DNA of 62,667 nucleotides from assembly GCA_025058595.1 (NCBI GenBank), contig JANXEK010000008.1:1-62667 (forward strand). Reading direction: 5' to 3'. Shown one piece after another: positions 41,104 to 52,117 of the stretch (position 1 is the stretch's first letter; the number at the start of each line of letters is the position of its first letter). Position numbers and translations under genes: made by a program. The stretch is from Candidatus Bathyarchaeota archaeon. GTDB taxonomy: Archaea > Thermoproteota > CALKCG01 > B24 > DRYS01. The notes beneath the pieces are model-generated. The model did no database searches, had not been told where the DNA came from, and saw nothing but the letters and a program-made list of their open reading frames with translations.

Positions 41104-42099
41104 ATGAGGTTCGGTGTAGAATTCGTCCCTAGAGAGCCTTTCTGGAGGACGACCCTATACGTTATAGAGGCTGAGAGGCTTGGATTCGAATATGTATGGG
41201 TTACAGATCACTACAACAATAGAAACGTCTTCACGACGCTTACCGCTACAGCTATCTACACTAGAAGTATAAAGCTTGGTGTAGGTGTAACGAACCCGTA
41301 CATAAGGCATCCAGCAGCTACAGCATCAGCTGTAGCCTCCTTAGCCGAGATAGCTCCAGATAGAGTAGCTCTAGGTATAGGAGCAGGAGATAGAGCTACG
41401 CTCGAAGGTATCGGTATCGAGATCGTTAAACCTTTACCGGCTATAAGGGAGTCCGTGCATATAATCAGAGGGTTGTTAGCGGGGAATCCGGTCTCCATCG
41501 ATGGGAGTGTATTTAAAGTTAAATCTGCTTCGCTAAACTTCAAATGCAGATCCTACATACCGATCTACATAGGTGCTCAAGGCCCGCAGATGCTATCCCT
41601 AGCCGGAGAAATCGGTGATGGTGTACTTATAAACGCAAGCCACCCGGAGGATTTCAGATACGCTATAGAGTATGTGAGGAAGGGTGTTGAGAAGGCTTCG
41701 AAGGATATCAAGAACGTGGATATAGTAGCCTATACAGCCTTCTCGGTGGCAGATGAGGAAGCTAAAGCTATGGAGACATCTAGGCAGGTGGTAGCCTTCA
41801 TAGTAGCCGGAAGCCCTGAGGCTGTGTTGGAGAGGCATGGTATAAACCTCGAGCTAGCTTCTCGTATAAGGGGGCTTATAGTATCAGGACGTTTCGATGA
41901 AGCATTCAAATCTGTAACAACCGATATGATCGATGCATTCAGTGTTTCAGGCAGCCCATCCTCCGTAGCTAAACGTATAGAGGAATGTTTGAAGATGGGT
42001 GTGACACAGTTCGTAGTAGGTTCACCTATAGGTCCCCAGCCATATGAAGCTATGAAGATTATAAGTTCTAGGATAATACCTATGTTCAAAGCTGTATAG
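41104..42099 (+). CDS. LLM-class oxidoreductase, F420-dependent type
   Basis: 331 aa bacterial-luciferase-like TIM barrel. Motifs: ERLGFEYVWVTDHYNNRN (near 20-37), YTRSIKLGVGVTNPYIRHPA (near 58-75), PDRVALGIGAGDRATLEGIG (near 93-112), YIPIYIGAQGPQMLSLAGEI (near 152-170) and the C-terminal GVTQFVVGSPIGP. It is closest by motif to methylene-tetrahydromethanopterin reductase relatives. Members use F420 or FMN; the presence of npdG in the window favours F420. The true substrate is not clear. It sits immediately upstream of the inositol-type genes but a promoter separates them. Confidence 0.87.
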   Translation: MRFGVEFVPREPFWRTTLYVIEAERLGFEYVWVTDHYNNRNVFTTLTATAIYTRSIKLGVGVTNPYIRHPAATASAVASLAEIAPDRVALGIGAGDRATLEGIGIEIVKPLPAIRESVHIIRGLLAGNPVSIDGSVFKVKSASLNFKCRSYIPIYIGAQGPQMLSLAGEIGDGVLINASHPEDFRYAIEYVRKGVEKASKDIKNVDIVAYTAFSVADEEAKAMETSRQVVAFIVAGSPEAVLERHGINLELASRIRGLIVSGRFDEAFKSVTTDMIDAFSVSGSPSSVAKRIEECLKMGVTQFVVGSPIGPQPYEAMKIISSRIIPMFKAV

Positions 42100-42139
42100 C
42101 CTTTCCTAACCCCCATACTATTTCGGCTCTTATAGATAA

Positions 42140-42150
42140 CTCTTAAATCG
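42140..42150 (+). promoter_or_regulatory. TATA element for the iolG-like gene
   Basis: ACTCTTAAATC-type block about 34-44 bp before the TTG at 42184. Confidence 0.4.
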
Positions 42151-42183
42151 TATATTCCTACTGTCATCGTATTGGTGTAGCTG

Positions 42184-43191
42184 TTGAATCACGTACGATA
42201 CGCCGTCATCGGTTTAGGTAGGATAGGTAGACTACATTGCGAGACGCTTAGATCGAGGGTAGATAAAGCTGAGCTTGCAGCTGTATGCGATGTATCAGAG
42301 GATCTAGCTAGATCCATGGGGGAGAAGCTTCGTGTGGCATGGTACTCGGATTACTCGAAAGTTCTAGTAGATCCGAATATCGATGCGGTAATCGTAGCTA
42401 CACCCACTTTCACCCATAAAGATATCGTCTTAGAAGCTTTGAAGGAGGGGAAACACGTATTCGTGGAGAAACCTCTAACTCCATCATCAGATGAAGCTAG
42501 AGAGATCGTCTCCTCTGTTGGAAAGAGGGATCTAAAGGTTATGGTAGGCTACCAGCGTAGATTCGATTACGTGTATAGGGATGCTAAACGTAGGATCGAG
42601 GAGGGCGCTATAGGTCGGCCGGTCTGCTTAGTCGATATAGCTAGAGATCCGCAGCCCCCCTCAGGCTGGGCTGCCGATCCGAGGCTGAGTGGGGGTATCT
42701 TCGCGGATATGCTCACGCATGACTTCGATATGGCGAGATGGCTCCTAGACTTAGAGGTATCGAAGGTCTATGTATCCGGTGGAAGCTTCTTCTATAATGA
42801 TCTGAGGATATTCGGAGACGTAGATTTCGCTAACGTTATGCTCGAGTTTGAAGGCGGCGTTCAAGGATTTATACAGGGTTGTAGGAGATCTGTATACGGC
42901 TACGATCTAAGGACGGAGATTCTAGGGACGGATGGTACGATCTCTATCGGTTGTAGCTTCGACCATTCACTTTACTACGGTACCTCAGATGGTGTGAAGT
43001 TCCGTGGAGCTCCGTGGTTTGAGAGAAGGTTTTATGAAGCTTATATCGAAGAGTTGAAGAGTTTCACGGAGGCCGTGTTGACCGATTCCACACCTCAGGT
43101 TACCGTGGAAGATGGGTATAAAGCTCTATGTATATCGGATGCATGCTGGAGATCCTTCAGGGAAGGGAAAGCTATACCTGTACATTACTAG
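42184..43191 (+). CDS. iolG: Inositol 2-dehydrogenase-like Gfo/Idh/MocA oxidoreductase
   Basis: 335 aa, length of IolG. Rossmann motif YAVIGLGRIGRLHCETL (residues 5-21), IDAVIVATPTFTHKDIVLEA, VFVEKPLTPSSDEA (EKP near 97) and the catalytic-domain GGIFADMLTHDFDMARWLLD (near 165, with the Lys97 and Asp/His pair of inositol dehydrogenases). Expected reaction: NAD-dependent oxidation of myo-inositol to 2-keto-myo-inositol. The inositol assignment rests mainly on the next three genes. TTG start. Own TATA element upstream. Confidence 0.75.
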   Translation: MNHVRYAVIGLGRIGRLHCETLRSRVDKAELAAVCDVSEDLARSMGEKLRVAWYSDYSKVLVDPNIDAVIVATPTFTHKDIVLEALKEGKHVFVEKPLTPSSDEAREIVSSVGKRDLKVMVGYQRRFDYVYRDAKRRIEEGAIGRPVCLVDIARDPQPPSGWAADPRLSGGIFADMLTHDFDMARWLLDLEVSKVYVSGGSFFYNDLRIFGDVDFANVMLEFEGGVQGFIQGCRRSVYGYDLRTEILGTDGTISIGCSFDHSLYYGTSDGVKFRGAPWFERRFYEAYIEELKSFTEAVLTDSTPQVTVEDGYKALCISDACWRSFREGKAIPVHY

Positions 43192-43201
43192 GTTGGTTGA
43201 G

Positions 43202-43211
43202 CTTTAAATCC
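43202..43211 (+). promoter_or_regulatory. TATA element for the iolM-like gene
   Basis: CTTTAAATCC about 35-50 bp before the candidate starts 43246 (TTG) and 43255 (ATG). Confidence 0.4.
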
Positions 43212-43245
43212 TTACACTCGGTAGCTTATTCGTGGAGGGGTAGGT

Positions 43246-44445
43246 TTGGGTAGGATGCTAGCCGCCGTCCTCTACGCAGATTTCGATCCACGTAGAGTTT
43301 ACGCTGTATCTAGAGAGGAAGTTACCACTCGTAAGGTTCGTGAAGGTAGTAACGTATGGAGGAATCCTAAGCTTACGTTAGAGGAGAGAAATATACCGAA
43401 ACCTAGGGGTAGGGAGGTATTGATCAGGGTCAAAGCTGTAGGGATATGCGGTAGCGATATCCATATGACGGAGTATGATAGCGAAGGCTACATGCTATAC
43501 CCAGGTTTAACTAAGCTACCTGTAACCTTAGGACATGAGTTCAGCGGTATAGTAGAGGAGGTCGGTAGTGATGTTGTAAACGTTAAACCTGGCGATATGG
43601 TTACTAGCGAGGAGATGCTTTGGTGCGGTGAATGCTTGATATGTAGATCTGTAGATGTCAATCACTGTACTAGGCTTAACGATCCTAGAGATCTAGAATT
43701 CGGTGAGTTAGGCTTTACGCATGACGGCGCTATGGCTGAATACGTAGTAGTCCATGAGAAGTATCTTTGGAGTATAAACCCGCTCCTAGATAGGTATGGA
43801 AGCGAGGATAGAGTCTTCGAGGCAGGTAGTCTAGTGGAGCCTGCATCCGTAGCGTATAGAGCGATATTCAATAGAGCTGGAGGATTCGATCCAGGTGGAT
43901 ACGTAGCTGTATGGGGTGCGGGACCTATAGGTCTATCGGCTATAGCTCTAGCTAAAGCTGCAGGTGCTAGTAAGGTTATAGCTTTCGAGGTAAGCCCTGT
44001 TAGAATGGAGCTAGCTAGATCTATGGGTGCAGACTATGTATTCAATCCGATCGAGCTCGAGAGGATGGGTATACAGCCTTGGGGGAAGATACTAGATATT
44101 ACCGGTGGATGGGGTGTGGATTTGCATATAGAAGCTTCAGGTGTACCCGAACTACTAGCGCAGATGGAGAAGAGCTTAGCGGTCGGAGGTAAAATTACAT
44201 GGATAGGTAGAGCTCCTAGAGCTGTATCTATGTATCCTGAAGTATTCCAGGTTAGGAAGGGGCAGATATACGGTAGTCAAGGTCATTCTGGATGGGGCAT
44301 ATTCAGGAACGTTATAAGGTTGATGTCGTCTGGATCGGTGGATACTACTAAGATGATAACTAGTAGGTTTAGGTTGAACGATGTTTCTAGAGCTTTCGAT
44401 AGAGCTAGACAGAGGATCGATGGTAAGATAACGTTGAAGCCTTAG
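43246..44445 (+). CDS. iolM: Zinc alcohol dehydrogenase resembling scyllo-inosose 3-dehydrogenase
   Basis: 399 aa. Medium-chain dehydrogenase with catalytic zinc Cys in AVGICGSDIHM (near 68), GHEFSGIVEEVG (near 95), structural zinc CGECLICRSVDVNHC (near 126-140) and Rossmann GAGPIGLSAIALAKAAGA. Idiosyncratic stretches SEGYMLYPGLTKLPVTLGHE, EEMLWCGEC, GSLVEPASVAYRAI and VRKGQIYGSQGHSGWGIF match my recollection of Thermotoga maritima TM0412 (IolM) almost phrase for phrase. IolM oxidises 2-keto-myo-inositol to a diketone. ATG 43255, three codons in, may be the real start. Confidence 0.75.
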   Translation: MGRMLAAVLYADFDPRRVYAVSREEVTTRKVREGSNVWRNPKLTLEERNIPKPRGREVLIRVKAVGICGSDIHMTEYDSEGYMLYPGLTKLPVTLGHEFSGIVEEVGSDVVNVKPGDMVTSEEMLWCGECLICRSVDVNHCTRLNDPRDLEFGELGFTHDGAMAEYVVVHEKYLWSINPLLDRYGSEDRVFEAGSLVEPASVAYRAIFNRAGGFDPGGYVAVWGAGPIGLSAIALAKAAGASKVIAFEVSPVRMELARSMGADYVFNPIELERMGIQPWGKILDITGGWGVDLHIEASGVPELLAQMEKSLAVGGKITWIGRAPRAVSMYPEVFQVRKGQIYGSQGHSGWGIFRNVIRLMSSGSVDTTKMITSRFRLNDVSRAFDRARQRIDGKITLKP

Positions 44446-44510
44446 AGTGTAGGGATAGAGTTAGAGTTATCTCCCCAGCTGCATCTACGTATATCCTCGG
44501 TGTCTGCGTT

Positions 44511-45470
44511 ATGGGTTGCGCTATTGGTAGTCGCTGGTCTAAACCTGTGTTAGATCGCTATAACCGTAAGATATACCTAGATCAGATGAATACTAGTGAG
44601 CTTGAGGAGAAGGTAAGAGAGAACGATGTAGTCTTCCTACCAGTGGGGTCGTTGGAAGCTCACGGTCCCTTCGCCCCTCTAGGGGAGGATACGATAATAG
44701 GCGTCTCTATAGCGGAGAGGGTAGCCTATGAGACAGGTGTTACGGTAGCTCCACCTATACCGTATGGTAGTCATCCTAGCCACCACTACGGTATACCTGG
44801 TACCATCCCCGTCAGAGCTACGCTACTAGCCGAGTATGTAGCGGAGGTTGTTAAGTGGCTATCTAACGCTGGTTTCAAGAAGATCTTCATCTGGAATAGC
44901 CACGGGCAGGAGTATGTCCTCCCCATAGCTAAGGATCTAGCTATAGTAGAGAAGGGTGTCCATGCGCTTATATTGGTTACTAGCTGGTGGGCTTGGGTTC
45001 AAGATATATTGAGGAAAGCCGGTAGCGGGGAGGAGGTAGCTCCAGGTGTGAGGATAGAGGCTCCGTTCATACATGCGGATGAAGTCGAAACCAGTGTCGT
45101 ATGGTATCTAGCTCCAGATCTAATCGACGAGGATAAGCTAAAGAGGGAGGGTGAATGGGGTGTGTACAGACCGCTACCAGCTAGATGGGTTAACACAGCT
45201 GGGAATGTATTCACAGATAGACCTTTCAACTGGTACGATGTAAGCTCTCTACCGGAGTTCTACTATTACCGTAAAGGCTTTGTAGGCTATGCTAATCTTG
45301 CAGATCCGGTTAAAGGTAGGGTTCTCGTCGAGAAGGTTGTAGAGAGGGTTGTAGAATTCGTGGAATGGCTTAAGAGAAGTTATCCGGCGGGTAGGATACC
45401 TAGGACTTGGATAGAATTCGAAGATCTATATTTCGATAAACCTAGATCCTGGTGTGAACCTAAGGGTTAA
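44511..45470 (+). CDS. iolN: Creatininase-family hydrolase, candidate diketo-inositol hydrolase
   Basis: 319 aa. Creatininase-fold ligands are visible: LPVGSLEAHGPFAPLGEDT (Glu, His, Asp near 47-60), GIPGTIPVRATLLAEYV, FIWNSHGQEYVL (His and Glu near 128) and FIHADEVETSVVWY (Glu near 195). This is a metal-dependent amidohydrolase-type fold. Standing between IolM- and IolO-like genes it is the best candidate for the ring-opening hydrolase IolN of the Thermotoga pathway. That iolN belongs to this fold is from memory. Alternative: another lactamase/amidase role. Confidence 0.65.
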   Translation: MGCAIGSRWSKPVLDRYNRKIYLDQMNTSELEEKVRENDVVFLPVGSLEAHGPFAPLGEDTIIGVSIAERVAYETGVTVAPPIPYGSHPSHHYGIPGTIPVRATLLAEYVAEVVKWLSNAGFKKIFIWNSHGQEYVLPIAKDLAIVEKGVHALILVTSWWAWVQDILRKAGSGEEVAPGVRIEAPFIHADEVETSVVWYLAPDLIDEDKLKREGEWGVYRPLPARWVNTAGNVFTDRPFNWYDVSSLPEFYYYRKGFVGYANLADPVKGRVLVEKVVERVVEFVEWLKRSYPAGRIPRTWIEFEDLYFDKPRSWCEPKG

Positions 45471-45473
45471 CGG

Positions 45474-46292
45474 TTGGTGGGCTCGCTGAAGCTATCCGTG
45501 GTCTATCTCTTAACGTCGGATCCAAGGTTCAACCTAGGTGTGAGGGGTTCTCTAGATGACCTGCTACCTAGGATTAGATCCATAGGGCTAGATGGCGTAG
45601 AGTATAACATACCTAACCCCTTCGATGTGGATGGTGTTAGGTTGCGTAGGGTTACCGAGGATTACGGTTTAGATATACCAGTATTATCGACAGGTTTATC
45701 GTATATACTCCACGGTATCAACCTGTCCAGTGTAGATGAGGATTCTAGGTTGAAAGCTGTTAAGTGGATGCGTCGATACATAGATCTATCTTGCGAGCTA
45801 GGATCGTATAGAGTCGTCTTAGGCTTGGTTAGGGGTAGATGTACCGATCGAGATCAGGGTATACGTCTACTCGCATCCTCTCTGAGAGAACTCGATCGTT
45901 ACGCGTACGAGAAAGGTGTACATATACTGTTGGAACCTTTGAGTAGCGGTGAAACAAACCTTGTAAATAGCATCGAGGAGGCTCTTATGTTCGTAGAGAT
46001 GTTTAGATCTATACGTATCCTATTCGATGTATACCATGCGTTAAACGAGGAGAAGGATCTCGTTAGATCCTTAGGATATGCCGGGAGATACGTAGAGCAT
46101 ATACATGTAGCTGATATGAGTAGAGGTGTATCTGAGCTAGGGGAGCTCCCCCTAAATCAGCTCTTTAGTATCCTAAGCTCGATAGGATATGAAGGATATG
46201 TAAGTTTAGAAGCTAGGATGGAGTATAGCGTCGAAGAATCTCTTAGAAGATTCATAGATATCGTTAAAGCTCTCCTTAAACCCTTACGATGA
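45474..46292 (+). CDS. iolO: TIM-barrel epimerase resembling 5-keto-L-gluconate epimerase
   Basis: 272 aa. Xylose-isomerase-like barrel with the peptide VVLGLVRGR near 120, then VHILLEPLSSGETN (Glu near 154), IRILFDVYHALNEE (Asp/His near 185), YVEHIHVADMSRG (near 208) and GYVSLEARMEY (Glu near 243). The N-terminal LSVVYLLTSDPRF and STGLSYILHGINLS also parallel TM0416 (IolO) as I remember it. IolO turns 5-keto-L-gluconate into D-tagaturonate. It begins 3 bp after the iolN-like stop, so the two are surely co-transcribed. TTG start; GTG at 45477 is an alternative. Confidence 0.7.
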   Translation: MVGSLKLSVVYLLTSDPRFNLGVRGSLDDLLPRIRSIGLDGVEYNIPNPFDVDGVRLRRVTEDYGLDIPVLSTGLSYILHGINLSSVDEDSRLKAVKWMRRYIDLSCELGSYRVVLGLVRGRCTDRDQGIRLLASSLRELDRYAYEKGVHILLEPLSSGETNLVNSIEEALMFVEMFRSIRILFDVYHALNEEKDLVRSLGYAGRYVEHIHVADMSRGVSELGELPLNQLFSILSSIGYEGYVSLEARMEYSVEESLRRFIDIVKALLKPLR

Positions 46293-46467: not shown

Positions 46468-47571
46468 GTGCGGATGGAGGTAGGGTTATTAGTATCCCGA
46501 AATCATATAATGTATGGTTTGCGAAACTGTATCCGAAGCCTAAGTCTAACCTATCTACTACTCATCTCTATAGTCATCGAATCGTATATACCGTCTAACC
46601 CTGGGTTGAGGTATATCGAGTATAGGGTTTATGAGGTTGAAGATGTAGCTACCCTAACCTATCTAGGTTCTAATAGGACTGTCTACGTAGATTGGCTTGT
46701 TCCGTTGAATAACAGTCATCAACTATCCTATGTGCTTGAGTTGAACCCTAAGGTATACGATAGGTTTACGGATAGATGGGGTAACGTTATCTATAGGTTT
46801 AAGATCGATCTAGATGTTTACGGATCGACGTTTAGGTTGGAGGGTAGGTATCGCGTCGTATGCTATAGTACGGTCTCAGCGGTGGATACCGGAGGGTATG
46901 GTAGATTGGAGGATATAGATTTAGATCGTATAGACTCGGTGTATCTCGCTCCAAGCTACTGGTGGAATTTCACAGATCCAATCGTATCTAGGCTTCTCGA
47001 AGAGATTAAGTCATCTCTAATCGGGGATTCTCGCATCGATGTATTGATCGGAGAAGCTAAGAAGATAGTTAATTCTAAGCTATCGTATAGAAGGATCGAG
47101 GAGAGGTTAGGTGCATCAGAAGCTTTGAGGAGGGGTTACGGGGATTGCTCAGAATTCTCAGATCTACTGATATCTCTAGCTAGAGGTTTAGGTATACCTG
47201 CTCGAAGGGTTTTAGGTGTGTATATCGAGGATTCCGAGGTTAAAGGTTGGCATGCATGGGTTGAGGTATGGAGTCCACCATTCGGGTGGATACCCATAGA
47301 AGCTACCGATCCGCTACCCCCGATCAAGCCTTTAGGCCATATAACATCGAACTATCTCGCTCTATACGTCGAGGGATACCAGGAGGATACTGTGGATGAA
47401 GAGTTTAGGGATGAGGAGATACTGTTCGATGTTAAGCTGATCGAGCATACCAGGTTGGTGGAGGATCCATATGTTAGGGTTGCTAGGGATCTCGCTATAT
47501 CGGTATCCATAGCTGTGGTAGCCATAGTAGCTATCCATATAGCTGTGAAGATGCGTAGAGCTAAGGGTTAA
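46468..47571 (+). CDS. Membrane-anchored transglutaminase-like protein
   Basis: 367 aa. N-terminal signal or anchor (SLTYLLLISIVIESYI, near 24-40), an extracytoplasmic beta-rich region to about 190, then a transglutaminase-core domain. Its catalytic triad is visible: RGYGDCSEFSDLLISLARGL (Cys near 226), GWHAWVEVW (His near 262) and PIEATDPLPP (Asp near 279). A second membrane helix (LAISVSIAVVAIVAIHIAVK) and basic tail close the protein. Archaeal members probably act as cysteine proteases or amidases on extracellular proteins. Stands alone; convergent with aspartate kinase. Confidence 0.85.
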   Translation: MRMEVGLLVSRNHIMYGLRNCIRSLSLTYLLLISIVIESYIPSNPGLRYIEYRVYEVEDVATLTYLGSNRTVYVDWLVPLNNSHQLSYVLELNPKVYDRFTDRWGNVIYRFKIDLDVYGSTFRLEGRYRVVCYSTVSAVDTGGYGRLEDIDLDRIDSVYLAPSYWWNFTDPIVSRLLEEIKSSLIGDSRIDVLIGEAKKIVNSKLSYRRIEERLGASEALRRGYGDCSEFSDLLISLARGLGIPARRVLGVYIEDSEVKGWHAWVEVWSPPFGWIPIEATDPLPPIKPLGHITSNYLALYVEGYQEDTVDEEFRDEEILFDVKLIEHTRLVEDPYVRVARDLAISVSIAVVAIVAIHIAVKMRRAKG

Positions 47572-47572
47572 G

Positions 47573-48985
47573 CTAATCTTCGTATAGCTTGAATTCATCG
47601 TGTATCGCTCTCACAGCCTCCTCTCCATCCTCCTCCTTGACGACGAAGGATATGTTGTACTCTGAGGAGCCCTGAGCTATCATACGTACGTTTATCCCCT
47701 TCGAAGCTACCGCTCTAAACACTTTAGCAGCTACCCCCGGCGTCCCCCTCATACCGGCTCCTACCACCGATACTACGCATATATCCGGCTCGTAGTATAC
47801 CCTACTGACGAGTAAACCTGTAACGCTCGATTCTAAAGCTGCGACAGCTCTATCGAGCGAACCTCTATCGATCACCATAGTTATATTGGCTTCGGAGCTA
47901 CTTTGCGATATCATAAGTATATTCACACCAGCTCTACCTAAAGCTTCGAAAACTTTAGCCGCTACACCTGGTAAACCGACCATACCCGTCCCCTCGACTG
48001 CTAGGAGGGCTACATCCCTTATCAAAACGACTGTTTTAACTATACGTCTATCGACTTCAGGTCTACCAGGCTCTATAGATGTCCCATGCTTACCGGTATC
48101 GAATAGATTCCTAACCCTGACTGGGATGCCTCGTGAAGCTATAGGATCGAATACCCTTGGATGCAACCCTTTAACGCTAAACCTAGCTAGCTCTATAGCC
48201 TCCTCGTAGCTTAGCTTATCTATAGTTCTAGCTCTTCTCTCGATCATAGGATCAGCCGTCATTATACCGTCTACATGCGTCCATAGGTAAACCTCATCGG
48301 AATCTAGACATGCAGCTAGGATAGTAGCTGTATAATCTGCTCCACCACGTCCAAGCGTAGTTATACAGCCATCTATCGTCGCACCTGAGAAACCGGCTAC
48401 CACAGGCGTTATGCCACGATCTATCAGAGGCTTCAACCTCTTAGAAACCTCGACTCTCGTATTCTCTATCAACGGGTTAGCATCCCCGAACCTTCCATCT
48501 GTAACTATGCCAGCCTCCCACCCCGCTAGAGCTACGCTATCAATCCCCTCCTCCGTGAGCTTGCTAGATACTATGATAGCGGATAGAACCTCTCCTATCG
48601 AAGCTATATAGTCTCTAACCTTAGCTGTAACCTCTCTAAGCTTCACGCATGTATAGGATATACTCCTCACCTCCCCCACTACCGCCTCGATCCTTTTAAG
48701 AGCAGCCTCCCTAGCTTCGATACTACCTAAAGCCTCCATCGCTAGCTTTACATACACTTCTCTTACCCAGTTTATATGCCCCCCTACCCTATCCTCGACA
48801 CCTAGCTCCATCTCCCTACATAGGGATAGAAGCCTATCGGTCACCCCTTCCACAGCAGCTACGACTACTACTAGCCTATAACCCCTACTCAACGCATCCC
48901 TTACGATGTCTACTATCCTCTCCATACCTTCGGCTGTAGCTACGCATCTCTCGCCAAACTTATAGATTAGAATCCTACTGCTCAC
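47573..48985 (-). CDS. lysC: Aspartate kinase with two ACT domains
   Basis: About 470 aa from the preferred GTG at 48985; the frame is open to 49042. Amino-acid kinase fold: VVVVAAVEGVTDRLL, GRGGADYTATILAACLDSDE and YLWTHVDGIMTADPMI, then tandem ACT domains (LPGVAAKVFEALGRAGVNIL; TPGVAAKVFRAVASKGINVR) that bind allosteric lysine or threonine. The usual N-terminal KFGGTSV reads KFGERCV here, an unusual change in the phosphate-binding loop. The GTG at 48985 has GGTGA eight bases upstream and gives the natural N-terminus SSRILIYKFG. It overlaps the upstream gene by 11 bp. Confidence 0.88.
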   Translation of the reverse strand: MSSRILIYKFGERCVATAEGMERIVDIVRDALSRGYRLVVVVAAVEGVTDRLLSLCREMELGVEDRVGGHINWVREVYVKLAMEALGSIEAREAALKRIEAVVGEVRSISYTCVKLREVTAKVRDYIASIGEVLSAIIVSSKLTEEGIDSVALAGWEAGIVTDGRFGDANPLIENTRVEVSKRLKPLIDRGITPVVAGFSGATIDGCITTLGRGGADYTATILAACLDSDEVYLWTHVDGIMTADPMIERRARTIDKLSYEEAIELARFSVKGLHPRVFDPIASRGIPVRVRNLFDTGKHGTSIEPGRPEVDRRIVKTVVLIRDVALLAVEGTGMVGLPGVAAKVFEALGRAGVNILMISQSSSEANITMVIDRGSLDRAVAALESSVTGLLVSRVYYEPDICVVSVVGAGMRGTPGVAAKVFRAVASKGINVRMIAQGSSEYNISFVVKEEDGEEAVRAIHDEFKLYED

Positions 48986-50270
48986 GATACGTATCACCCT
49001 TCTTCGGAGATCCGTGTAGAGCTTTAAGCTTAGCAAGCTCATCTACGAGCATAGGTAGGAATACACCTACATCCGATACTACGCCTATCGATTGAGCCGC
49101 CCCCCTATCGAGAAGCTTAACCGGTACAGCCGGGTTTATATCTACGCATACGACTTTAACAGTAGAAGGTATCATATTCCCTACAGCTATAGAGTGTAGC
49201 ATAGATGCTAGCATTAAGACTAGGCCTGCATCCTTAAGATGCATTCTATACGCTTTCTGAGCTTCAACTACATCCGTTATGACATCGGGTATAGGTCCAT
49301 CATCCCTTATCGAGCCTGCTAGCACGTATGGTACATCGTTAACTATGCATTCGTAGAATATCCCCTTCTTCAATATCCCCTTCTCGACTGCTCTACGTAG
49401 ACCTCCGCACTTCATCACCTCGTTTATAGCTACCAGGTGATTCTTATTTCCACCAGGTATCCTATACCCTTCATCCACCTTGAACCCGAGCGATGTACCG
49501 AAGAGGGCGTACTCTACATCGTGAACAGCTAGCGCATTACCGGATAGAAGAGCGTCGACGAACCCCATACGGATCATACGTGCTAGATGTTCACCTCCAC
49601 CCGTATGTACCACCGCAGGTCCAGCTACGACTACTATCCTACCCCTGGATGCCTTCACCTTATACATCTCCTCAGCTATCCTCTTAACTATAGTCGGTGT
49701 AGGCTTCTCAGGTGAAGCTCTACTACTCATAAACTCGAAGATACCTACACCCGTCCTAGGATATTCTGGAAGCTTAACCCTCACACCTTCATCGCCTACG
49801 ACTACAAGATCCCCTCTACGTACATCCCTAATACCCTTACAGTATGCTCTACCGGCTACAGGGTCCACTACTATAACTTTATCCATACATACATCTTCGA
49901 CCTGCACCCATCTACCATTATACCTTATCCATGTAGGATGGTTCGTAGTAGCGTAGAATCCATCCGGTAGAACCATATCATCTGGGGCCTCCTCTAACTT
50001 AGCATCCTCTATGTATACCGGTAGAGCTCCTAAACTTCTAAGCTCTTTAAGTATGTATTCGAGGTGGTCGCGACTCCTACCCTTAACCATTATCCTAGCG
50101 TAGCTCGTCTCATCCTTCCTCCTACCTATACGGAAATCTAATACCTCGAACTCCCCTCCTAGATCCATAACTCTATCGAAAACCTTAGGTAGTATGTACG
50201 AATCTATGAGATGTCCTTCAAGTTCGATTATCTCTGTATATTCATCGCCTGGATCTTGGAATACGATCAC
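48975..50270 (-). CDS. TIGR00300 (LOR/SDH-type) protein, probable ornithine cyclodeaminase
   Basis: 431 aa. N-terminal domain starts YTEIIELEGHLIDSYILPKV; middle DGFYATTNHPTWIRYNGRWV (near 128); C-terminal dinucleotide-binding domain VVVAGPAVVHTGGGEHLARM (near 225), YRIPGGNKNHLVAINEVMKC and the tail VKLLDRGAAQSIGVVSDVGV. These are hallmarks of the archaeal LOR/SDH-like family, for which an ornithine cyclodeaminase function (ornithine to proline and ammonia) has been described. Overlaps aspartate kinase downstream, so a role in amino-acid metabolism is consistent. Confidence 0.82.
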   Translation of the reverse strand: MIVFQDPGDEYTEIIELEGHLIDSYILPKVFDRVMDLGGEFEVLDFRIGRRKDETSYARIMVKGRSRDHLEYILKELRSLGALPVYIEDAKLEEAPDDMVLPDGFYATTNHPTWIRYNGRWVQVEDVCMDKVIVVDPVAGRAYCKGIRDVRRGDLVVVGDEGVRVKLPEYPRTGVGIFEFMSSRASPEKPTPTIVKRIAEEMYKVKASRGRIVVVAGPAVVHTGGGEHLARMIRMGFVDALLSGNALAVHDVEYALFGTSLGFKVDEGYRIPGGNKNHLVAINEVMKCGGLRRAVEKGILKKGIFYECIVNDVPYVLAGSIRDDGPIPDVITDVVEAQKAYRMHLKDAGLVLMLASMLHSIAVGNMIPSTVKVVCVDINPAVPVKLLDRGAAQSIGVVSDVGVFLPMLVDELAKLKALHGSPKKGDTYREQ

Positions 50271-50414: not shown

Positions 50415-51581
50415 TTGAGAGGTTTGAATCTACGGATTAGATTCCTAGAGGTAGCTAGATTCGGTAAACCGGATAGGATACCGTTATCGTTATGGGGTAT
50501 TAGACCTGCTACGCTTAAAAGGTGGTGGATGGAGGGTTTACCCCCAGGGATGGATGCAGCTACATACTTTAGGTTCGACATATATGGTATGAAGACTTTC
50601 AATATAACCTCGTGGCCTTCTGAAGGCTTCCAGTGGGAGCCTAGCGATAGGCTTGTAAACCTAGGCCCCATCCCCCCTTTCGATTACAAGATTATAAGGG
50701 AGGATGATAGGTATAGGGTATGGGTGGATAGTCTAGGTATAACCCAGCTGGGATTCCAAGATGATTGGAAGTATGGTTGGAGCGGGTTCGCTACGAGGAC
50801 GTTCGTAGATTTCCCCGTTAAGTGTAGGGATGATTTCGAGCGTATAAAGGGTAGATATGACCCGCATCACCCAGATAGATATCCATCTAGATGGGGGGAG
50901 ACGGTCGAGTATCTAAGGAAAAATAATGATGGAAGCTTCCTCATACATATGTCGCTGAGAGGTGCTTTCTGGTGGATTAGGGATATGATGGGGTTGGAGG
51001 CTACCCTGATAAGCTTCTTCAAAGATAGACAGCTTATCAGGGATATACTTGATCTATACCTGGATTTCCATATCGAAGCTTTAAGGAGAGCTATCGGAGA
51101 GGTTGAGGTAGACTATGTTACACTCAACGAGGATATGGCTTATAAACGTGGATCAATGATTTCACCCAAGATGTTTAGAGAGTATATTTCACCGGTTTAC
51201 CGTGAGTTTATCAAGTTCCTTAAAGATAATGGTGTTAAGATAGTTATAGTAGATAGCGATGGGTATGTCGAACCTCTAATACCCGAGCTTCTATCTGTAG
51301 GAGTTGATGGTATATCTCCATGCGAAGTAGCCGCAGGTATGGATGTAGTAGAGCTTAGGAGGAAGTATCCAAACCTCGTTATGATGGGTGGTATAGATAA
51401 GAGGATGCTAGCATCGTCCAAGCTAGACATAGATAGGGAGGTCTACAGAAAGGTTCCACCGTTAGTAGAGAGTAGAGGCTACTTTCCAGGTGTAGATCAC
51501 GCCGTCCCACCCGATATATCGTTCGATAACTTCAGCTACTTTGTAGAGCTTCTCAAAAAGCTATGCGGCTGGATCGATTAA
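50415..51581 (+). CDS. Uroporphyrinogen decarboxylase-family protein (corrinoid methyltransferase-like)
   Basis: 388 aa TIM barrel of the URO-D superfamily. The N-terminal RIRFLEVARFGKPDRIPLSL replaces the canonical R-F-R-P motif of true HemE. VEVDYVTLNEDMAYKRGSMI (near 235), MFREYISPVYREFIKFLKDN and IVDSDGYVEPLIPELLSVGV followed by NLVMMGGIDKRML resemble MtaA/CmuA-type methyltransferases. It is therefore unlikely to be a heme enzyme. The next gene is a DUF2284 protein overlapping by 19 bp. Start TTG (50415) or TTG 50424. Confidence 0.85.
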   Translation: MRGLNLRIRFLEVARFGKPDRIPLSLWGIRPATLKRWWMEGLPPGMDAATYFRFDIYGMKTFNITSWPSEGFQWEPSDRLVNLGPIPPFDYKIIREDDRYRVWVDSLGITQLGFQDDWKYGWSGFATRTFVDFPVKCRDDFERIKGRYDPHHPDRYPSRWGETVEYLRKNNDGSFLIHMSLRGAFWWIRDMMGLEATLISFFKDRQLIRDILDLYLDFHIEALRRAIGEVEVDYVTLNEDMAYKRGSMISPKMFREYISPVYREFIKFLKDNGVKIVIVDSDGYVEPLIPELLSVGVDGISPCEVAAGMDVVELRRKYPNLVMMGGIDKRMLASSKLDIDREVYRKVPPLVESRGYFPGVDHAVPPDISFDNFSYFVELLKKLCGWID

Positions 51582-52117
51582 CCCATAGGTGGTTATCCTT
51601 GGATGATGGATACTACTCGCTATCTTTAGAGGATCTATGCAATCTAGCTGTGAAGCTAGGTGCTAAAACAGCTAGGATCCTAAGATCTGAGGATATCGTA
51701 ATCGCAGATTGGGTTAGACTTAAATGTATGTATGGATGCGGAGGATACGGTGAGAGGCTTACATGCCCACCCTATTCTCCGACACCGGAGGAGACTAGAA
51801 GGATACTTAGATCGTATGAATACTGCATACTGGTAGAGTTTCTACCTGAAGCTGATATCCATAGGGTTATGGCTGGACTCGAGAGGGAGGCTTTCCTAGC
51901 TGGATACTACTCCGCCTTCGCTATGGCTGTGGGTCCATGCGAGCTATGTGAGGAGTGTACGCTTAAGAGTTGTAGGTATCCTGAGATAGCTAGGCCATCC
52001 ATGGAGGCGTGTGGTATAGACGTCTATGCTACGGCTAGAAAGGCTGGCTTCGATATCAAGCCTCTTAAATCTCGTAGAGAGACTCCGAAATACTTCGGGC
52101 TACTGTTGGTTAGGTAG
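51563..52117 (+). CDS. DUF2284 cysteine-rich metal-binding protein
   Basis: 184 aa. Cys-rich pattern: CMYGCGGYGERLTCPPYSPT (near 56-75) and CELCEECTLKSCRYPEIARP (near 132-150), followed by SMEACGIDVYATARKAGFDI. The CxxC-x-x-C...C arrangement probably holds one or two Fe-S or zinc sites. As far as I recall, DUF2284 proteins often neighbour corrinoid methyltransferases. The 19-bp overlap with the URO-D gene means translational coupling. The function is unproven. The 3' end overlaps kae1 by 8 bp on the other strand. Confidence 0.85.
   Translation: MRLDRLTHRWLSLDDGYYSLSLEDLCNLAVKLGAKTARILRSEDIVIADWVRLKCMYGCGGYGERLTCPPYSPTPEETRRILRSYEYCILVEFLPEADIHRVMAGLEREAFLAGYYSAFAMAVGPCELCEECTLKSCRYPEIARPSMEACGIDVYATARKAGFDIKPLKSRRETPKYFGLLLVR

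Follow-up and report, generated by a model that had tools for sequence, protein, structure and literature searches.

Can an archaeon degrade inositol by the route known from Thermotoga maritima? The question is raised by four consecutive genes, iolG-iolM-iolN-iolO, at positions 42184-46292 of a 62,667-nucleotide stretch of DNA (contig JANXEK010000008.1, assembly GCA_025058595.1) from a Thermoproteota archaeon, Candidatus Bathyarchaeota; the whole stretch that was analysed is called the window here. In archaea, inositol is produced as a component of lipids and osmolytes. We conclude that the four genes probably form one operon, encoding the upper half of inositol catabolism of the Thermotoga type; a lower half of the aldolase type is more speculative. 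The upper half, from inositol to D-tagaturonate/D-fructuronate, is well supported and likely to be correct. We tentatively propose that the catabolism of inositol and hexuronates ends, in many Thermoproteota, with an undescribed retro-aldol route that bypasses the sequence of reductase, dehydratase and 2-keto-3-deoxygluconate (KDG).

When 1,511 archaeal genomes were surveyed in 2022, homologues of the Bacillus-type cluster turned up only sporadically, and the authors concluded that only Bacteria have the capability (PMC9430895); gain of iolB, iolC, iolE and iolG has been reported in Gagatemarchaeaceae (PMC10640624). Neither an archaeal inositol pathway of the Thermotoga type nor a fructuronate/tagaturonate aldolase is reported in the open-access literature searched.

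The gene cluster

The cluster consists of the following genes, given with their best NCBIfam and Protein Data Bank (PDB) matches:

42184-43191, + strand: iolG-like Gfo/Idh/MocA dehydrogenase, 335 residues; TIGR04380, inositol 2-dehydrogenase (332.8 bits, cut-off 355); PDB 3ezy (E 2e-67)
43246-44445, + strand (alternative ATG start at 43255): iolM, putative zinc MDR scyllo-inosose 3-dehydrogenase, 399 residues; NF041097 (502 bits, above the curated cut-off of 450); PDB 3ip1 (E 1.5e-95)
44511-45470, + strand: iolN-like creatininase-fold hydrolase, 319 residues; NF041098, 3-dehydro-scyllo-inosose hydrolase (213.6 bits, cut-off 245; next family 109.6); generic creatininase-family matches only in the PDB
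45474-46292, + strand: iolO-like TIM-barrel epimerase, 272 residues; NF041099, 5-keto-L-gluconate epimerase (158 bits, cut-off 300; next family 70); PDB 2zvr, which is TM_0416 (E 8e-29)

The genes are co-directional, and the intergenic gaps of 54, 65 and 3 bp make an operon likely. The Pfam assignments (GFO_IDH_MocA, ADH_N/ADH_zinc_N, Creatininase and AP_endonuc_2, in gene order) and the open reading frames bear out the four rightward genes and enzyme classes described in the initial annotation of this DNA. That annotation had also quoted three phrases of the MDR enzyme and a GLVRGR motif of the epimerase as Thermotoga-like. All are present: EGYMLYPGL, EEMLWCGEC and GSQGHSGWG of IolM align with EGYILYPGL, EEMLWCGHC and GSQGHSGHG of 3ip1, and GLVRGR of IolO aligns with TM_0416. 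We take 3ip1 to be T. maritima TM0412 and 3ezy to be TM0414. The proposed homology to the Thermotoga iolG-iolM-iolN-iolO set thus holds, with IolM over its family cut-off and the other three having the corresponding Iol family as their best match, though under the cut-offs. Among 14 control genomes, the IolM family has a match at E ≤ 1e-100 in T. maritima only.

The block is also contiguous in an independent metagenome-assembled genome (MAG) of the same genus (G001; loci L009/L103), at 75-92% identity. This MAG, labelled Candidatus Bathyarchaeota JZ_bin_32 at L009, holds the nearest IolM (87%) and is syntenic over the whole region. A second, independent assembly with the syntenic block makes contamination an unlikely source of the cluster, and the synteny together with the PDB E-values puts its likeness to the Thermotoga genes far beyond chance.

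The cluster thus resembles the T. maritima pathway (Rodionova et al. 2013) in its four enzyme families, best PDB matches and gene clustering, and differs from it in its archaeal host, in the three proteins under curated cut-offs and in having no homologue of the pyrophosphate-dependent kinase TM0415, IolR or InoEFGK beside it. With the Bacillus-type iol pathway (IolE, IolD, IolB, IolC, IolJ) it shares the first enzyme, IolG, but no IolE, IolD, IolB or IolC homologue is found among the cluster genes.

Occurrence in other archaea

In a scan of the genome collection, IolM is present in Thermoproteota MAGs with 66-87% identity; IolG, IolN and IolO lie close by in many of these, in varying order. 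We surveyed 398 Thermoproteota genomes, with the tests repeated at the genus level, which reduces phylogenetic dependence but does not remove it. IolM occurs in 36 genomes from 17 families, and all 29 genomes with a strong IolN also have IolM (p 8e-38; genus level 1.4e-20). Strong UxaE, the tagaturonate/fructuronate epimerase that in T. maritima belongs to hexuronate catabolism, is found in 28 genomes, 24 of them with IolM (p 1e-25; genus level 2e-15). Across 13-17 Thermoproteota families, IolM and IolN occur together as a unit. The Thermotoga-type pathway, present in about 9% of the sampled genomes, offers a concrete gene set for archaeal inositol degradation. The IolM carriers include near-complete single-contig genomes, presumably of cultured Thermofilum.

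At the level of gene neighbourhoods, IolN is present in 31 and IolO in 26 of 37 IolM loci, while IolG lies within 9 kb of IolM in 14. In a Pyrodictiaceae MAG (L017), iolN, iolO, uxaE and iolG are all within 10 kb of iolM, and a sugar ABC transporter is present; the nearest match of its binding protein is one for rhizopine, an inositol derivative. Several uxaE/iolM clusters (L010, L011, L077, L087, L092, L096) have a gene for a small cyclophilin-like PF04126 protein beside them.

Gene-tree placement, which had been suggested as a check, was carried out for IolM: a long branch joins TM0412 to a single archaeal sequence (G240), and the remaining Thermoproteota IolM are on the other side. The tree gives no direction of transfer between TM0412 and Thermoproteota.

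IolM is also found in the haloarchaea Haloterrigena and Haladaptatus, where it is 40-42% identical and already annotated by PGAP. Unlike here, those loci (L154, L155, on plasmids) have a gene for a thiamine-pyrophosphate enzyme beside or near iolM, and a methylmalonate-semialdehyde dehydrogenase or LLM/F420 oxidoreductases nearby. They possibly represent a hybrid inositol pathway, and this setting means that IolM by itself is not diagnostic of the Thermotoga route.

Proposed upper half

We now turn to the reactions, which are predicted from the family membership, linkage and co-occurrence described above. IolG would oxidise myo-inositol (or scyllo-inositol) to scyllo-inosose (2-keto-myo-inositol), and IolM would convert this to the 1,3-diketone 3-dehydro-scyllo-inosose. 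Hydrolytic ring opening of the diketone by IolN would give 5-keto-L-gluconate, which IolO would epimerise to D-tagaturonate. This would then be turned into D-fructuronate by UxaE, the gene of which lies elsewhere in the genome.

The active site of the window IolO retains Glu, Glu, Asp, His, His, Arg and Glu at the positions that we take, by the D-tagatose 3-epimerase family, to be those of the metal ligands and catalytic residues. The substrate-loop motifs are altered in this genus: they read SSGET, DVYHA and MSRGVSELG, compared to NRYET, DTFHM and SNRxAPGxG in TM0416 and most archaeal relatives. Judged from these motifs, the least secure point of the upper half is the exact substrate of IolO.

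Proposed lower half

The initial annotation had suggested that the archaeon may follow the same route as T. maritima, and that tagaturonate/uronate genes should be sought elsewhere in the genome. UxaE is indeed there. However, a profile search of this 92%-complete genome gives no match to PF08125 (UxuB; Mannitol_dh_C) or PF03786 (UxuA), and the altronate dehydratase C-domain (GD_AH_C) is likewise not found in it. The classical UxuB/UxuA or altronate lower route was thus searched for without a match, and the likeness to T. maritima extends to the upper half at most. The neighbours of uxaE (L105: a BadF-type ATPase, an amidohydrolase and a beta-CASP nuclease) offered no next-step enzymes.

Instead, three families recur around iolM and uxaE: f10, f7 and f4, the last a 2-hydroxyacid dehydrogenase. 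The relevant genes of this genome outside the window are:

G000:C33:51532-52971: UxaE (467 bits; PF16257, 73 bits, cut-off 27.1; solved isomerase 9kcs, E 4e-141)
G000:C11:82973-85144: f10, about 720 residues (PF00923, 44 bits, cut-off 27), directly beside f4
G000:C6:31723-32637: f7, about 310 residues (PF01261), elsewhere in the genome

The f10 family occurs in 52 genomes, among them 27 of the 28 with UxaE (p 2e-26), and f7 in 47 genomes at E ≤ 1e-80, including 26 of those 28. The recurring adjacencies in other genomes are f7-f4, f4-f10 and f7-uxaE-f10, and in relatives some iol loci also include f4/f7/f10, UxaE and an ABC transporter for sugars of the rhizopine type. This module tracking UxaE is a further difference from T. 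maritima.

What could f10 do? The AlphaFold2 model of this genome's protein (pLDDT 94.3) has 37 Foldseek matches at E ≤ 0.001, every one a transaldolase or an aldolase of the transaldolase family (best E 6e-9, probability 1.0, target TM 0.66). In a profile alignment, the segment RPNIVFKV aligns with that of the transaldolase Schiff-base lysine, and Lys364, aligned to this lysine, is invariant in 22 of 22 sequences. Equally invariant (22/22) is Gln312, in the column of the transaldolase catalytic Glu (SxEV motif), so that f10 is without the glutamate of transaldolases proper. Glutamine at that position is typical of fructose-6-phosphate aldolase (FSA-type aldolases). With the modelled fold and the Schiff-base lysine, f10 is assigned to the transaldolase/FSA superfamily. 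MtaA/URO-D-like methyltransferase genes flank f10 and an IolO-like epimerase gene at another locus (L126:7565-13052, G016).

In the proposed route, f10 would cleave D-fructuronate in a retro-aldol reaction to dihydroxyacetone and tartronate semialdehyde; alternatively, the dihydroxyacetone unit could be passed to glyceraldehyde-3-phosphate. D-Fructuronate has the C3/C4 configuration of fructose, and the epimerisations by IolO and UxaE would thus give a stereochemistry acceptable to such an aldolase. The f7 isomerase would convert tartronate semialdehyde to hydroxypyruvate, f4 would reduce this to D-glycerate, and glycerate kinase, present in this genome, would then phosphorylate it. The f4 protein beside f10 scores 489.6 bits with NF009714, glyoxylate reductase (cut-off 455). 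The role of f7, assigned from its context, is the least certain of the lower half: it scores 35.1 bits with the TIGR03234 hydroxypyruvate isomerase family (cut-off 353).

A mechanistic precedent for this lower half is the sulfofructose transaldolase (sulfo-SFT) pathway of Eubacterium rectale, in which an acidic ketose substituted at position 6 is split by an enzyme of the transaldolase family, with reduction of the resulting C3 fragment (PMC11968277). That enzyme differs from f10 in acting on 6-sulfofructose with transfer to glyceraldehyde-3-phosphate, and f10 has about 720 residues with long extensions and Gln for the catalytic Glu. If the aldolase step is true, it would represent a new mode of hexuronate breakdown and provide a predicted function for an uncharacterised family of about 720-residue enzymes.

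Alternative explanations

The alternative that survives best keeps the upper half as proposed and has a bacterial-style lower half, where fructuronate/tagaturonate is reduced and dehydrated to KDG by non-homologous archaeal enzymes, followed by a KDG aldolase or the aldolase of its 6-phosphate (KDPG). KDG aldolases are widespread in Thermoproteota, which speaks for this option. One lineage (L101:10161-11330 and L102, family f29) even has an altronate/galactarate dehydratase-type gene (PF20629) adjoining iolM, which suggests that it uses an altronate-KDG route. A gene of the DHDPS/KDG-aldolase superfamily lies about 4 kb from f10 (L124:17189-18175), but its best match is dapA, and it reaches only 79 of 390 bits with the archaeal KDG aldolase. 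T. maritima itself uses UxuB-UxuA-KdgK-KdgA, its glucuronate genes being kdgA-kdgK-uxuB-uxuA (PMC3750489). Since UxuA, Mannitol_dh_C and GD_AH_C are not found in this genome, and since a KDG route leaves the near-perfect tracking of UxaE by f10 and f7 unexplained, we regard it as rather unlikely.

A different substrate for the operon is less probable still. This could be another cyclitol (scyllo- or chiro-inositol, or a methyl-inositol), a sugar acid that joins the route at 5-keto-L-gluconate, or inositol freed internally from lipids or di-myo-inositol phosphate and not taken up. An IolO-type epimerase takes part in the L-glucose (L-glucose/L-galactose) catabolism of Luteolibacter (PMC12632266), and only the above-mentioned 14 IolM loci have IolG nearby. 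The genome also encodes INO1, which means that the cell makes its own inositol, and the operon may recycle it rather than feed growth. Glycerophosphodiesterase genes also adjoin iol genes in several relatives (L077, L085, L089, L074, L017), several with an SBP_bac_1 ABC transporter, which suggests glycerophosphoinositol or other phosphodiesters as the inositol source in some lineages. Against another substrate, the family specificity of IolM and IolN and the contiguous IolG indicate inosose chemistry, and the L017 binding protein is of the rhizopine type.

Returning to the inositol operon with an aldolase-type lower half, a number of points count against it. IolG and IolN fall short of their cut-offs and IolO lies far under its own, in addition to having the altered loop motifs. 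No transporter, regulator or inositol kinase adjoins the window cluster (transporters elsewhere in the genome were not searched). T. maritima itself failed to grow when inositol was the only carbon source (PMC3750489). Strong UxaE is missing from 12 of the 36 IolM genomes, and kinship is handled in the co-occurrence p-values only by collapsing to genera. As the genome is a MAG of about 92% completeness, absences are provisional. The structures nearest to f7 are ketose 3-epimerases; IolI is matched as well, and f7 resembles both as much as hydroxypyruvate isomerase. Finally, f10 is present in 24 genomes without IolM and is therefore not specific to inositol. In favour of the lower half, a 579-residue family is found near f10 in genus g81 where iolM is absent or unlinked, and the one member scanned is beta-glucuronidase-like (449 bits, cut-off 544); such neighbours tie the module to hexuronates independently.

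Upstream gene and other neighbours

The region directly upstream of iolG contains:

41104-42099, + strand: mer, F420-dependent 5,10-methylenetetrahydromethanopterin reductase (TIGR03555)
42100-42183, + strand: 84-bp gap between mer and iolG, with a TTATAGATAA stretch at about 42130

As read from the sequence, this gap is where the iol transcription unit probably begins. The initial annotation had proposed that the upstream LLM-class oxidoreductase adds an F420 step to the pathway. It does lie only 84 bp away on the same strand, but it exceeds both curated Mer cut-offs (432.5 against 348.7 and 429.2 against 276 bits), and the mer-iolG adjacency is confined to the window's genus (two genomes). 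An F420-dependent oxidation of this kind is thus very improbable and was rejected; mer is a neighbour and is not counted in the inositol pathway. Equally remote is a chance grouping of generic dehydrogenases, an amidohydrolase and an isomerase without a common pathway: the superfamilies are all large and three of the four proteins are under curated cut-offs, but this was rejected because strong IolN never occurs without IolM in the 398 genomes, and the genes cluster in varied orders in many families.

Directly 3' of iolO, at 46468-47571, is a gene for a transglutaminase-core protein that is kept in the congener only. It is followed on the - strand, at 47573-50270, by two genes with a 68-base overlap, the first of which resembles aspartokinase by eye. 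At 50415-52117, a URO-D/MtaA-like corrinoid methyltransferase gene overlaps the gene of a DUF2284 metal-binding protein; the two are likely a one-carbon pair, and mer is present in the genome as well.

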